Below, in pieces: positions 20,521 through 49,829 of a stretch of DNA of 64,000 nt (position 1 is its first letter; each line of letters starts with the position of its first letter). Position numbers and translations under genes: made by a program. Below the pieces are notes generated by a model. That model was not told where the DNA came from. It did not search any database and was given only the letters and a program-made list of their open reading frames with translations. The DNA comes from Dipodascopsis uninucleata var. uninucleata (taxonomy: Eukaryota; Ascomycota; Lipomycetes; Lipomycetales; Lipomycetaceae), in assembly GCA_030568195.1 (NCBI GenBank), contig JAJLTO010000003.1:766501-830500 (forward strand), in the 5' to 3' direction.

Positions 20521-21606
20521 CTACATGACACTACCTGCCGATCCAAGACCCCAAATATGACCTTGACAGCTATCCTCACGGGCCTCTGTAAGATGCTTCC
20601 GTAATTCGAAGAAACAAGAGTTTGTTAATAGAGCTTCACTACCAGCCTGATGAGCTGGTCCTATACGTGTTATCCGTAATTCATCTGCTAGCTCTTGTAA
20701 ACTACCTTTCACATTCTTAGTGCTTGTCAATCGAAGTAAGTACTTTATGTCGAAGAGAGAGGGGAAAAAAATCTTGACCAGACTTAAAAATTCTTCTTCC
20801 TCAGGTGGCAGAGGTGTACTCAACATCAAAGACACTAGATAGCCAAAGTCATATCCACTATGAAAACTAACCCACTTAACACTGTCGTCAAGGACCAAGC
20901 CACTGCTGATGAGGAGTTCTGCAAATGCCTGAGGTTCAATCCCATATTCTTCATGCTTTTTGAAATCGATCCCGGACTTAGTGAACAGATCAATTGAATC
21001 AGCGGAGTACATTTCCTGCGCTAAACTGAATCTAAGATTGAACTGCCATGTACTGGGCAGTCCTTCCGGATGATTTCCATGTTCATCAGCGAAAGTAATC
21101 GCCAGCTGAATGACATTTAATAAATCGACGTTACACCGCAGCGTTTGATAATGATAGTCTGTAGTAGTTTTGAACGATCCAATAGGTCTTGCGACTATGC
21201 CCGGAAATTCCGAATCCATTGATAAATAGTTGTAGCGCTCCACCAATTCTCTTAAAACATGCATCTCCTGTTCAAAATTGGTTCTCCAGACTTCGCGTAT
21301 TAGCGAACCTGCTAATGTATTTGTCATCTGTGGAGATGCCATAGCCGACGTAAGAGAAGGTTGTAATCCATGATTCTGTTGATGTTGGAGCTGTGGAGTT
21401 TGTAGTTGGACTTGCTGTTGTTGTTGTTGTTGTAATGACGTTGCTTGATGAACAGATGCAGATGCCATTGGGGGGGGAGGAGCGAATCCACCTCCCAAAT
21501 GTGAATTCATTCCGGTACCCATAGGAAACAAATTATTAAATCGTGGAAGCATACCAGCTCCTTGCATAGGCATTTGCATCGTAGATGGTGTTGCAGGCGG
21601 TGCCAT
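20521..21606 (-). CDS. CAF1: CCR4-NOT deadenylase Caf1/Pop2
   Basis: Single exon, 361 residues. The N-terminus of about 95 residues is Met/Pro/Gln-rich with a polyQ tract. The RNase D-like DEDD nuclease domain runs from about 100 to 340: IREVWRTNFEQEMHVL, MDSEFPG (D131, E133), RCNVDLLNVIQL, SFHSGYDFGYL (D253), LPPEEEEF, and RIGPAHQAGSEALLT (H319 and E324). The protein shortens mRNA poly(A) tails as a Not1-bound subunit of CCR4-NOT. The fourth acid, Asp in most Caf1 proteins (AGSDSLLT), is Glu here. Budding yeast Pop2 is also degenerate at this site. A tandem diverged copy lies immediately upstream on the same strand. Confidence 0.95.
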   Translation of the reverse strand: MAPPATPSTMQMPMQGAGMLPRFNNLFPMGTGMNSHLGGGFAPPPPMASASVHQATSLQQQQQQQVQLQTPQLQHQQNHGLQPSLTSAMASPQMTNTLAGSLIREVWRTNFEQEMHVLRELVERYNYLSMDSEFPGIVARPIGSFKTTTDYHYQTLRCNVDLLNVIQLAITFADEHGNHPEGLPSTWQFNLRFSLAQEMYSADSIDLFTKSGIDFKKHEEYGIEPQAFAELLISSGLVLDDSVKWVSFHSGYDFGYLVSLMLSTPLPPEEEEFLSLVKIFFPSLFDIKYLLRLTSTKNVKGSLQELADELRITRIGPAHQAGSEALLTNSCFFELRKHLTEAREDSCQGHIWGLGSAGSVM

Positions 21607-22455
21607 TGCTGCCGATCTTTGTGTAATTTTCCAAGCGAAGAAAAAAGAATAAATAGAAACGTTATTGCTACAATGCTGCTAAAATAGCTGATAGTTTTGC
21701 GAAAGCTTGAGTTTAGCAAAGTCAACTTTCGCAAAGAAGAGCAAGCACTGCAATTGCTCCAAAAATGTATCTAGAAGACAATTATTGCAAGTATATATAA
21801 ATCGAAGGGAATATATCCTCAGCACCAAACCAGGAATCAGCAACTTAGTATCAATGACACAAATATATATAAATATGCCTCTAGCTGCAAATGCATCACA
21901 GCTTTTAATATAGAGGTTTACAGTGTATAATTCATTAACTATATCTCTTGAGGATATTTGATGATGGAATCCCAATATATGTACTTAGATAGTTAGATAC
22001 GGTGTTAGTTTTCTGTGTCACTCAAAATTTGTAAATATCTCTTTAATTTAGAGATCTTCACTCAAATTCGCTAGACTTGTCATGAAGAAAAAAGGTGAGG
22101 CGTAGTGTATTTTCGGCGTCACTTGATACTTCACGTGACCTATCTGAACCGAAGATATCAATCTACACTCAAATGAAGTCAGCATATATTATGTAGTATT
22201 ATACTAGCATTAAAGATTCTTGTTACGATTTTTTCTATAATAAGGAGAAATGTATGTAGAAATAAGCACTAAATGAATATTTATGGACTAAAAATGAAGA
22301 TACTAAACGTTAATATGGTACATTCAGAGAATGGTAACTCTAGTTCAAGATAGCTCTAGATAGCTACCAATAATATTTAGTCTATTTGATTCGATTGTCA
22401 TAAACATCAGAGAAGAGATTAAATATATAAATATGTTGTATCTTGTTTAAGTACC
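21607..22455. other. Intergenic between CAF1 and its paralogue
   Basis: 849 bp containing the CAF1 promoter and the 3' end of the upstream CAF1-like gene. Short frames on both strands overlap and have no family signal. Confidence 0.45.
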
Positions 22456-23900
22456 TTATGGTGATGTTTGCTGATATGCACTTAACTGGCTACCATCAAT
22501 CGTCTCGGAAAAGAGTGAGTTGGTATCTGCACCTGGTAGGTAATGTTTTAGTTCAGTAAGGAATATTTCTATGTCCGGTGGTAGCTGTTTATTTGTAAGA
22601 ATTGAGAATATGAACCCATATGTCAAGGGCCTAGAGTACCAGTTAGTTTGACGGAAAATACTACTATCAAATCAACCATCGGTTGAGAACTAAAACAAAA
22701 GAATCTAACCCAGATGTGGATTTCCAAAAAATATTATTTGACAACACTAGACCACTACCAAATAGACGTTCTGCAAACTCAAGATGACCTATGCCATCGT
22801 ATACATGGGACCTTAAGTGATCCGGACCGTTAAAAAGCTTCGGCACAGACGCAAGTGAATACATATCTTGGCTAAAGCGGAGTTGTAACTGTCAGGCCCT
22901 TGAATTTCATAAAAGCTCTAATAAGATGACTTTCCACAAACCTGATCTTAAATTTGAAATTGAACACCCATTTATACTGTATTCCTTGAGGGTATTCATT
23001 ATGTTCAGTTGACAATACAAACGAGAGTCTCAGCAGTTTAACCATGTCAACGTTGCATCTCATTCTCTGATAAGTGTGGTCAACACGATCACTAAAGTTT
23101 CCAATAGGCTCACAGGGTAAGTCTGATACTTGACTTTCCTTTAAATATTTTATTAGAAGACCAATCGTTAGCAAGGCAGTAACAGATAGTCCGAGATATT
23201 ACCCCAAAAAAGTCCTTACCACTCTTATGAAATTGAACTGGTCTACCAAGTTTCCAATTACATCTAGTTCCTTGTGAAAATTATATCTCCATACATTAAT
23301 TGTCGTAAATCCATTATCATTATATATCGATGAAAAGGTCTCCTGATAACCTAATCCAGTGTATCCTGGCTTTGAGTAATCAAAATCAGTAGGTATCAAC
23401 AGTTCTTGCAGGTTTATAGGATAGTGGTTAATCTTGCCATATGGTGGCCCGTCCAACATAGTACATCCAAGTCCCGAAAAACCCTCACTTGAGACGTAGT
23501 CAATAGTAGATGGGAATTTAGTATCTATTTCAACACTGGTATTGTACTTTCTGCTCTCTTGAGGGCCATATAAAATGGTATCAGACGTTTGAGGACTGAA
23601 CAATACGCTAGCATAGCCATACTCTCTGGCTGCTTTTTGCTCTGCTTCATACCCGACATCCTTGGCATACACTTCGGTTAGAAACGAAGTCGAGTCAGTG
23701 ATTCCAGCTTCATGATTATCATTTAGATATTGCTCATACAGTCTAGGAACTCCAGTTGACAAAGCTATCTCGTCGTCTTCGCCTTGATGCTGTTCATTCA
23801 CGTCTATGGATACTTGGTTCAGTTCATTAGCTGCAAGCCTCATATTCGTGCCAGCTAATTGGATATTTCCCTTTTGCAGGTATTCCCACGCTGAATTCAT
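22456..23900 (-). CDS. Diverged Caf1-like protein lacking catalytic acids, 4 exons
   Basis: Exons (minus strand) 23220-23900, 22942-23138, 22710-22871 and 22456-22660 join in frame to give 414 residues with no internal stop. Donors are GTAAGG, GTTTGT and GTTAGA. Residues 1-205 are a unique acidic extension. The rest aligns without gaps to the neighbouring Caf1 over long runs: VWRYNFHKELDVIGNLV with VWRTNFEQEMHVLRELV, RMRCNVDMVKLL with TLRCNVDLLNVI, WVFNFKFKISQDMYS with WQFNLRFSLAQEMYS, and LPPDIEIFL with LPPEEEEFL. The active-site DSE is ESQ here, the third acid position (YDFG) reads LTYG, and the protein stops before the fourth acid. It is therefore predicted to be a non-catalytic paralogue, perhaps a Not1/Ccr4 competitor or scaffold. 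An expressed gene is inferred from conserved frame; a decaying duplicate is the alternative. Confidence 0.75.
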
Positions 23901-24389
23901 AGAATACCGAGATATTATTTGGTACTAAACGATCAAAGTCGCGTGAGACTATGATATGATCTATTGGAGTAACAAGCTACTATATACGATGACAAGTGCT
24001 TCTTCACCTAAATCGTTTATATTCATAAATATGCTATAAGTCATAAATTCAAAATATTTTCTGGGACACTATTGAACAATATATGTTTTGTATTGTTTAA
24101 GTAGTTTAGCTCAACTGAGAACCTTCAGCTATTCTAGTCGTATTATATGTGAATTAGTCGATTTCATGATGGACGAAAGCTGAATGCTATTTATTATGAG
24201 GGTCTCGTGTATGTATGAAAGTGTAGCCAATCAAATTTAAGAGAAAAAAAGTTGAGATTTACCCATCCAAACTCACAGAGACTAAAGCACCAGTGAATTT
24301 CATTAAATTTGGAGATACCGAGAACCACTAGTTATAGAAAAGACGATCTTAGGGACTCTATTATATACATATATTTAATAAAGGACACA
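23901..24389. promoter_or_regulatory. Divergent intergenic, CAF1-like gene / complex I subunit
   Basis: 489 bp between two divergent starts. No element recognised. Confidence 0.35.
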
Positions 24390-48068: not shown

Positions 48069-49829
48069 ATGACAATGGCCATGTCTAGTCCTCGTATCGT
48101 GTCAATTATAGGAGCAGGGCCAGTTGGTACTCTCGCAGCACTATATTTTTCTAACGATGGATGGGACGTGATGTTATATGACCTAAGAGATGGTATGAGA
48201 GAACTTAAGTGTGGTTAGAGACCGCAGCTAATAAACTGTTTATTCCATATGCAGACATTAGACAGACAAGAGTACTAGGAGGACCTGCATCCACTGGAAA
48301 GTCCATCAATCTTGCCCTTTCTCATCGAGGCATTGAAGGTCTCCGAGGAGCTAGTGAAGAACTCGCCAAAGTTGTGATGGAAAATGTTATTCCTGTGTAT
48401 GGACGAATGATCCATGACCGACGTGGACGACAGGTGTCTCAGATGTACGATGTTCATGGTGAGCATATCAATGCTGTTGATAGAGGTTGGCTCAATGCTT
48501 TACTTCTTGATGAAGCGGAGAAGAGGCCCAATGTCGAAATCAAGTTCAACCATAAGTTAGTGAAGTGCGATTTTAACAACAAGACTGTCAAATTCTCGAC
48601 AAGGTTAGCACATAGGCAATTTGACTTAAGCACAAGCTGTAGTAATCTCACTGACTGAACTTAGTACCGGAATCATTGATATGCACACTGATTTGGTAGT
48701 TGGTGCTGATGGCGCACATTCAGCAGTTCGACGAGAGCTAATGAAATTCGCCAGGTAAGCTTATTGATCTGCCGTGGTATTATAACCGGGTACAGGAGAT
48801 AATTATATGCTGAACTGAATTCTAACAGACATCAGAATGGACTACGAGCAAAAATACATTGATGCAGCTTGGTGTGAAATTTCTTTTCCACCAAGAAAGA
48901 ATAGTAAAGGAAATGATGAATATGCACTAGATCCAAACCATCTGCATATCTGGCCAAGAAAGACCTACATGTTAATGTGTCTCGCTAATATAGGCAATGA
49001 CAAGTCATTTACTGGAACGCTTTTTATGTCTCCTCATCAATTCGAAGATATCACATATCCAAGTGACATTGTGGACTTTTTCCGAGCAAACTTCCCCGAC
49101 GTCCTTCCGCTCATTGGCGAAGAAAATCTTGTAAAGCAGTATTTCCAGAATGAGAAAGGCTCACTGATGTCATTAAAGGTATTGCTAAGCATTTTGAGGA
49201 TCGTGTTAATTCACTGCACAATAGTGATTTGTTATGCTAACTCTATTATATTACAAAAAGTGTGAGCCATATCATTATTTAGACCGTTGCGTTTTAATTG
49301 GAGATGCATCCCATGCTGTAAGTATTTATTAGTCACTGACATCTGGTCTCCTAGCGTTTACAGGATAAGGCTAATTATCTATCGTTAGATGGTCCCCTTT
49401 TATGGTCAGGGAATGAACTGTGGATTTGAAGACGTTAATCAACTCTTCAGGATAATACATTCTACAAATTCACTGACTAGTGCTTTCGATCAGTATACCA
49501 CAACGCGTAAAGCAGATCTTTTTGCAATTTCGGATCTTGCTATGAACAACTATATTGAGATGAGACACTCGGTCACATCTAAAGTGTATTTAGCTCGCAA
49601 GCATACCGAGGAGCTTGTTTACAAGTTTTTTCCGAAGCTTGGTGTTCGTACTCTCTATCATATGGTAAGTTTTACAAGCATTCCGTATCATATTGCTTTG
49701 AAACGAAGCATAAGACAGGGAAAGATGTTTGAGGCTGCAACCGTTGGTCTTGGAGTTTGCCTGATAGGTACCATTGCTTATGGCGTGTTTAAATTTAAGC
49801 GAGTGTTTTCTGGTTATTTCAGTTCCTAG
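48069..49829 (+). CDS. BNA4: Kynurenine 3-monooxygenase, 6 exons
   Basis: Exons 48069-48192, 48255-48603, 48665-48754, 48836-49178, 49261-49317 and 49389-49829 join in frame to 467 residues, close to the usual 460-490. The enzyme hydroxylates L-kynurenine with FAD, NADPH and O2 in the tryptophan-to-NAD pathway at the outer mitochondrial membrane. The FAD-binding GAGPVG lies at residues 15-20. Junctions give YDLRD-DIRQTRVLGG...[40 protein letters not shown] and [37 protein letters not shown], all diagnostic. A hydrophobic helix near the C-terminus (AATVGLGVCLIGTIAYGVF) is the membrane anchor. Each exon boundary was set by frame and motif continuity. Confidence 0.95.

Follow-up and report, generated by a model that had tools for sequence, protein, structure and literature searches.

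Most poly(A) tails of mRNAs are shortened by the CCR4-NOT complex, in which the part played by Caf1 other than cutting is debated, as exemplified by Pop2 of S. cerevisiae. Pop2, described as the only Caf1 of that yeast (PMC3870282), has a degenerate active site (SEDQ) and was proposed to be mainly structural (PMC4032980, PMC8216464); the protein with SEDQ was also reported to be active in vitro (PMC4032980). Catalytically inactivated mouse CAF1 is reported to compensate in S. cerevisiae when the homologue there is lost (PMC8216464), a precedent for a non-cutting role. The catalytic residues of the family are given as D40, E42, D161, D230, and H225 (CNOT7 numbering; PMC3510486), and H157 is listed as an active-site position of CNOT7 (PMC8216464).

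For the locus described here, a sequence-only reading had proposed a pseudo-Caf1 of a kind not described for fungi. No fungal pseudo-Caf1 paralogue was named in the titles and abstract openings listed or in the accessible portions of PMC3510486, PMC8216464, PMC4032980, PMC3870282, and PMC3868889, which is weak evidence of absence; the word "paralog" is absent from the accessible portion of a review of CCR4-NOT in fungi. The claim of novelty has to be narrowed in one respect, as Pop2 with its SEDQ site is already degenerate, although it is not an extra, truncated paralogue.

Results

Locus and gene model

Two genes of the CAF1/POP2 family lie on the minus strand of the window (the whole stretch of DNA analyzed, 64,000 nucleotides), with the paralogue 849 bases upstream of canonical CAF1. 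The features are as follows.

20521-21606, minus strand: canonical CAF1/POP2, single exon, 361 amino acids, Q-rich N-terminus (best match among solved structures CNOT7, E 2.2e-97; Pfam CAF1, 78.9 bits)
23220-23900, minus strand: paralogue exon 1, residues 1-227, comprising the acidic extension (1-202) and the start of the Caf1-like part (open frame, codon score)
23139-23219, minus strand: intron 1, 81 nt, GTAAGG ... TGCTAAC ... AAG, with an in-frame stop inside (its removal yields the gapless alignment with CAF1)
22942-23138, minus strand: exon 2, carrying the RCNVD helix and, where the catalytic DSE would be, ESQ (alignment)
22872-22941, minus strand: intron 2, 70 nt, GTTTGT ... CCTGACA ... 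TAG (alignment)
22710-22871, minus strand: exon 3, matching CNOT7 ~105-158, including the NOT1-contact residues 137-149 (alignment)
22631-22709, minus strand: intron 3, 79 nt, GTTAGA ... AACTAAC ... TAG (alignment)
22456-22630, minus strand: exon 4, with LTYG instead of YDFG, a 25-residue tail without convincing match, and the stop codon (alignment)

The gene for the complex I B12 subunit (Pfam NDUF_B12) is divergent from the paralogue, starting at ~24390 on the plus strand; its product is closest to the solved structures 7zm7 (E 6.1e-19), 9iho, and 6gcs, of which we take 7zm7 to be from Chaetomium and 6gcs from Yarrowia. An ATP-type PEPCK is also present; together with the B12 subunit and the CAF1 tree, it points to a fungus as the source of the DNA.

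The coordinates originally proposed for the paralogue proved exact (start codon at 23900, end of the stop codon at 22456, minus strand), and its four-exon structure was supported; the predicted spliced product comprises 404 residues rather than 414, and the N-terminal extension 202 rather than 205. Met 1 is preceded by T at position -3 and Met 20 (23843) by A, and the latter could be the actual start. All three introns have GT...AG ends and branch-like motifs (CTAAC, CTGAC, and CTAAC in introns 1, 2, and 3, respectively). The splice model is best supported by the gapless match to CAF1 that results when the three introns are removed together. In 264 kb of the genome, GTAAGT was the donor most enriched upstream of CTAAC (30 observed vs 7.7 expected), whereas the donors of the paralogue, GTAAGG, GTTTGT, and GTTAGA, were not enriched there (4, 11, and 5 observed vs 4.5, 9.2, and 8.8 expected). 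Intron candidates found mechanically and having a good codon score (95 places, 45 of them printed, real introns being mixed with chance ones) include the donors GTTAGT, GTAAGC, and GTAAGG. In the window, a gene at 48090-49826 (plus strand), presumably KMO-like, has the donors GTTAGC, GTAAGC, GTATTG, and GTAAGT when read by eye; near 48195-48215, the frame of its first exon seemingly continues only across a very short intron or by a frameshift. The donors of the paralogue, though not strong, are inside the range of donor variety of this genome.

In the CAF1 domain, 4 of the 6 CTG codons stand opposite a Leu that CNOT7 and CNOT8 share; reassignment of CUG was set aside on this count, and the standard code was used.

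Membership in the CAF1/POP2 family

Residues 203-379 of the paralogue align with the neighbouring CAF1 over 177 positions without gaps, 61 of them identical (34%; BLAST, E 4e-40). The gapless match to Caf1 had been anticipated, albeit in several blocks, where BLAST returns a single one. Among solved structures, the paralogue significantly matched CNOT8 (E 9.5e-35), CNOT7 (2.4e-32), Pop2 (3.4e-25), and S. pombe Caf1 (5.5e-25) over the domain, its identity to CNOT7, CNOT8, and the neighbouring CAF1 being 33-35%. Weighing against the match, a profile search, which had been suggested as a check, gave 14.5 bits for PF04857, below the curated cut-off of 24.2, and a whole-genome search for the CAF1 family listed canonical CAF1 alone and not the paralogue. 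Further copies of the paralogue were not found in the genome by family, protein, extension, or DNA among the best first-look candidates, which were those scored; a weak match to the extension (E 0.13) contained three stops and was discarded.

Canonical CAF1 itself carries the catalytic acids D, E, D, and, as the fourth, Glu (HQAGSEALLT; D230 in CNOT7), which is unlike CNOT7, CNOT8, and two CAF1s from metagenome-assembled genome (MAG) records. These two were obtained with an alignment of the neighbouring CAF1, CNOT7, and CNOT8 as the query (the paralogue itself was not part of it): of 76 pattern matches in prokaryote MAG records, 2 were confirmed, as opposed to none of the 42 in viral contigs. 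Both look eukaryotic, and an algal origin is our guess. As their contigs, filed as Synechococcus and Euryarchaeota MAGs, bear a eukaryote-like CAF1, apparently with an intron, these contigs are probably contaminants. The two proteins served as controls below.

Loss of the active site and of the C-terminal part

By alignment, the catalytic DSE is ESQ in the paralogue, YDFG is LTYG, and the fourth acid lies beyond the end of the protein, all of which agrees with the sequence-only reading. In CNOT7 numbering, D40, E42, H157, and D161 correspond to E, Q, S, and T, whereas the sequence is too short to reach H225 and D230; the five DEDDh positions thus read E, Q, T, absent, and absent. One qualification of the catalytic loss is that E, at the first of these positions, is still acidic. 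The nuclease domain is also incomplete, BLAST homology ending at P190 of CNOT7. A search of 21680-24380 for a leftover C-terminal CAF1 exon gave nothing convincing (best E 0.31, for a plus-strand match inside exon 1), nor did one for a C-terminal remnant downstream of the gene (21680-22560; best E 3.1), and residues 363-404 had no match in the PDB at E up to 10. With the catalytic residues changed and the C-terminal part absent, nuclease activity of the paralogue appears very unlikely. Without the last ~70 residues of its fold, the domain may also lack stability.

The losses are not spread evenly over the remaining domain. Up to position 190, 95 residues are invariant in the family, that is, identical in CNOT7, CNOT8, and the neighbouring CAF1, and the paralogue retains 45 of them: 3 of the 20 that lie in the two active-site strands, compared with 42 of the 75 outside these strands. 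The difference (Fisher P 0.001) is post hoc because the active-site bins (37-47 and 151-166) were merged afterwards as those holding the catalytic residues. The two control CAF1s kept 19/20 and 16/20 in the active-site strands and 60/75 and 59/75 elsewhere. The best kept of ten bins in the paralogue was 131-150, which carries NOT1 contacts (9 of 10 invariant residues). Loss concentrated on the active site is the pattern expected when catalysis is gone and the fold is still needed.

That the paralogue is an artefact, be it a wrong gene model or a nuclease that is still active, is hardly credible. The splicing is predicted from sequence, and D40 to E keeps one acid, but removing three introns together yields a gapless alignment, other residues have replaced E42, D161, and H157, and the protein lacks H225 and D230 altogether.

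Age of the duplication

In the tree, which included S. pombe Caf1 as a fragment only, the paralogue was placed beside the neighbouring CAF1 with 48% support and with a branch about nine times as long (1.86 vs 0.21). Relative to CNOT7 and CNOT8, the two have in common a single additional residue in the loop that precedes the TWQF strand, a loop in which the insert of the control CAF1s is longer; the shared residue fits a duplication within fungi, without settling it. Among the sites at which neither human protein agrees with the neighbouring CAF1, the paralogue had the residue of CAF1 9 times, the human residue 11 times, and neither of them 26 times. As it sides about equally with CAF1 and with the human proteins, the split may be old.

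Integrity of the reading frame

Several measures bear on the distinction between a gene and debris. In a neutral simulation starting from the CAF1 segment and proceeding by substitutions only to the same divergence, 0 of 500 sequences were stop-free (mean 7.2 stops, minimum 1). An open run of 227 codons from the given start has a P of ~4e-7 at this base composition. Differences between the paralogue and CAF1 fell on the three codon positions in the proportion 87/66/110 of 177, and by NG86, dN was 0.65 and dS 2.8, a value that is saturated. For exon 1, the codon score was +0.073 in frame and negative (-0.067 to -0.171) in each of the other five. For exons 2, 3, and 4, it was -0.034, -0.003, and -0.048, one other frame being slightly higher in each; their own frame is the only one without internal stops. 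The whole coding sequence scored 0.025, compared with 0.086 for CAF1 and a mean of 0.138 (sd 0.070) for 48 long open reading frames.

Given 404 codons and three introns, ~4% neutral divergence would disable the paralogue with 95% chance, and ~2% suffices once an indel is allowed for every ten substitutions. As so little divergence breaks the gene, its frame was protected for most of its history, as judged from the sequence, and any loss of function would have to be recent. The proposal of a pseudo-nuclease rather than debris was supported by the intact frame, the gapless alignment through three introns, and losses centred on the active site; the paralogue is a diverged and truncated, presumably non-catalytic Caf1 that has, more likely than not, been kept for a function.

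The main rival explanation is a relic, that is, a duplicate long constrained that lost catalysis and its C-terminus and now drifts without function, no stop or frameshift having arisen yet. The long branch, which also fits relaxed constraint, is in its favour, as are the C-terminus cut off without a remnant exon in 21680-24380, the unenriched donors in place of GTAAGT, and the low codon score of the coding sequence (0.025 vs 0.138). Release from constraint would, however, have to be recent, since ~4% neutral divergence (2% with indels) is already disabling, and donors vary in this genome anyway, as in the KMO-like gene. We consider the relic slightly less likely than the reading preferred below.

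The N-terminal extension

Residues 1-202 are acidic (pI 4.25; 29 D/E and 11 K/R). They had no match in Pfam at E up to 1 and none in the PDB at E up to 10, and a single-sequence structure model of exon 1 was uninformative (mean pLDDT 28.8).

Contact surfaces for NOT1 and CCR4

The contacts of CAF1 with its two partners were compared at positions taken from published complexes: R28, A137, E138, M141, T142, L147, E149, N171, I184, L187, and F188 on the side of NOT1 (Petit 2012, PMC3510486), and G45-P50, C67, L71, and M107 on the side of CCR4 (PMC8216464), as far as the accessible portions of these sources list them. On the NOT1 side, the paralogue is identical to CNOT7 at 4 of 11 positions, and the neighbouring CAF1 and the two control CAF1s at 5 of 11 each. 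A137, E138, L147, and N171 are kept, and M141 is replaced by the hydrophobic F. Counted against docking on NOT1 are the replacements of R28 by G, I184 by E, and L187 by H; in the published complex, R28 is described as stacking on H1212 of NOT1 (PMC3510486). On the CCR4 side, the paralogue is identical at 3 of 9 positions, compared with 8 of 9 for the neighbouring CAF1 and 8/9 and 7/9 for the controls. C67, M107, and P50 are kept, L71 is conservatively replaced by M, and the patch of C67, L71M, and M107 is hydrophobic; these three positions are reported to cover the first CCR4 repeat (PMC8216464). The stretch GVVAR at the CCR4 repeat reads DLPCE. Taken as one set, 7 of the 20 contacts are kept against a baseline of 59/179, and 51% of random draws reach 7, which counts against a decoy on NOT1. 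Only by comparison with the other CAF1s do these counts suggest that the NOT1 face is kept and the CCR4 loop lost, which is not proof of selection for binding.

Possible partners are encoded in the same genome: one NOT1 MIF4G domain was found (C5:1145800-1146459, minus strand), and a CCR4-like protein with leucine-rich repeats, the latter recognized by eye, is present. This NOT1 reads SRIFKPPNPW where human NOT1 reads SVVFRPPNPW, placing R at the position of human V1250; the R of the human motif is presumably R1253. In the published complex, V1250 is described as contacting I184 and L187 of CAF1 (PMC3510486), and a charge match between the R of this NOT1 and E184/H187 of the paralogue is possible. 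The neighbouring CAF1 has L184 and I187, and as it is the presumed binder of the same NOT1, the R does not demand an acid. In a more elaborate version, a dedicated pseudo-Caf1 and the NOT1 of this genome would have evolved together, E184/H187 facing R, and the former would slow deadenylation stoichiometrically by keeping CAF1-CCR4 off NOT1, thus antagonizing the enzyme encoded beside it; this version is quite improbable.

The same contacts bear on two further explanations. The paralogue might be a functional protein outside CCR4-NOT, the extension doing the work and the Caf1-like part serving as a scaffold or dimerizing module for new partners. Half of the protein is indeed a unique acidic extension, coding by frame and codon score, only 3/9 CCR4 contacts are kept, and the hydrophobic NOT1 contacts 184 and 187 have become E and H. 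However, the extension is devoid of a recognizable domain, its model (pLDDT 28.8) being of no help, and the stretch best kept of all ten, 131-150, is that of the NOT1 face (9/10); a role elsewhere appears unlikely. Alternatively, the paralogue might resemble S. cerevisiae Pop2 as an adaptor without catalysis that holds CCR4 and bridges it to NOT1. This would be in line with C67, M107, and P50 being kept and L71 being conservatively M, and Pop2 with SEDQ could be its precedent (PMC4032980, PMC8216464), but the change of GVVAR to DLPCE, the 3/9 CCR4 contacts where three other CAF1s keep 7-8/9, and the canonical CAF1 already present make it very improbable.

Discussion

The reading that we prefer, with a probability of roughly one in three (0.36), is that of a non-catalytic, Caf1-like decoy or modulator docking on NOT1, derived from an old tandem duplicate of CAF1 and under selection. 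The duplicate would have lost its catalytic activity along with the end of the nuclease domain while selection on the protein persisted. If expressed, and if its truncated domain folds, the product would dock on the MIF4G domain of NOT1 via the kept alpha-5 face, would neither trim poly(A) nor hold CCR4 well, and would deprive some of the NOT1 scaffold of its nuclease module, thereby affecting deadenylation; the acidic N-terminal extension would add regulation. If this is true, a normal Caf1 and a truncated one lacking the active site, encoded side by side, constitute a natural case of separation of function, which would test whether occupancy of NOT1 by itself regulates deadenylation.

Compared with canonical CAF1/POP2 proteins (CNOT7, CNOT8, S. 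pombe Caf1, and the neighbouring CAF1), the paralogue has the same domain over CNOT7 ~15-190 but differs in that the DEDDh residues are changed or absent, the domain ends at ~190, and an acidic extension of 202 residues is added. Like the vertebrate pair CNOT7/CNOT8, it makes for two Caf1 genes in one genome; unlike in the paralogue, the active-site surface residues of that pair are described as completely conserved in both members (PMC3870282). With S. cerevisiae Pop2, it shares membership in the Caf1 family combined with degenerate catalytic residues, and by this analogy, Pop2 is its closest precedent. In contrast to Pop2, which was matched along the whole CAF1 domain when the neighbouring CAF1 was compared with solved structures, the paralogue is shortened, lacking the C-terminal part, and it is an extra copy beside a normal CAF1.
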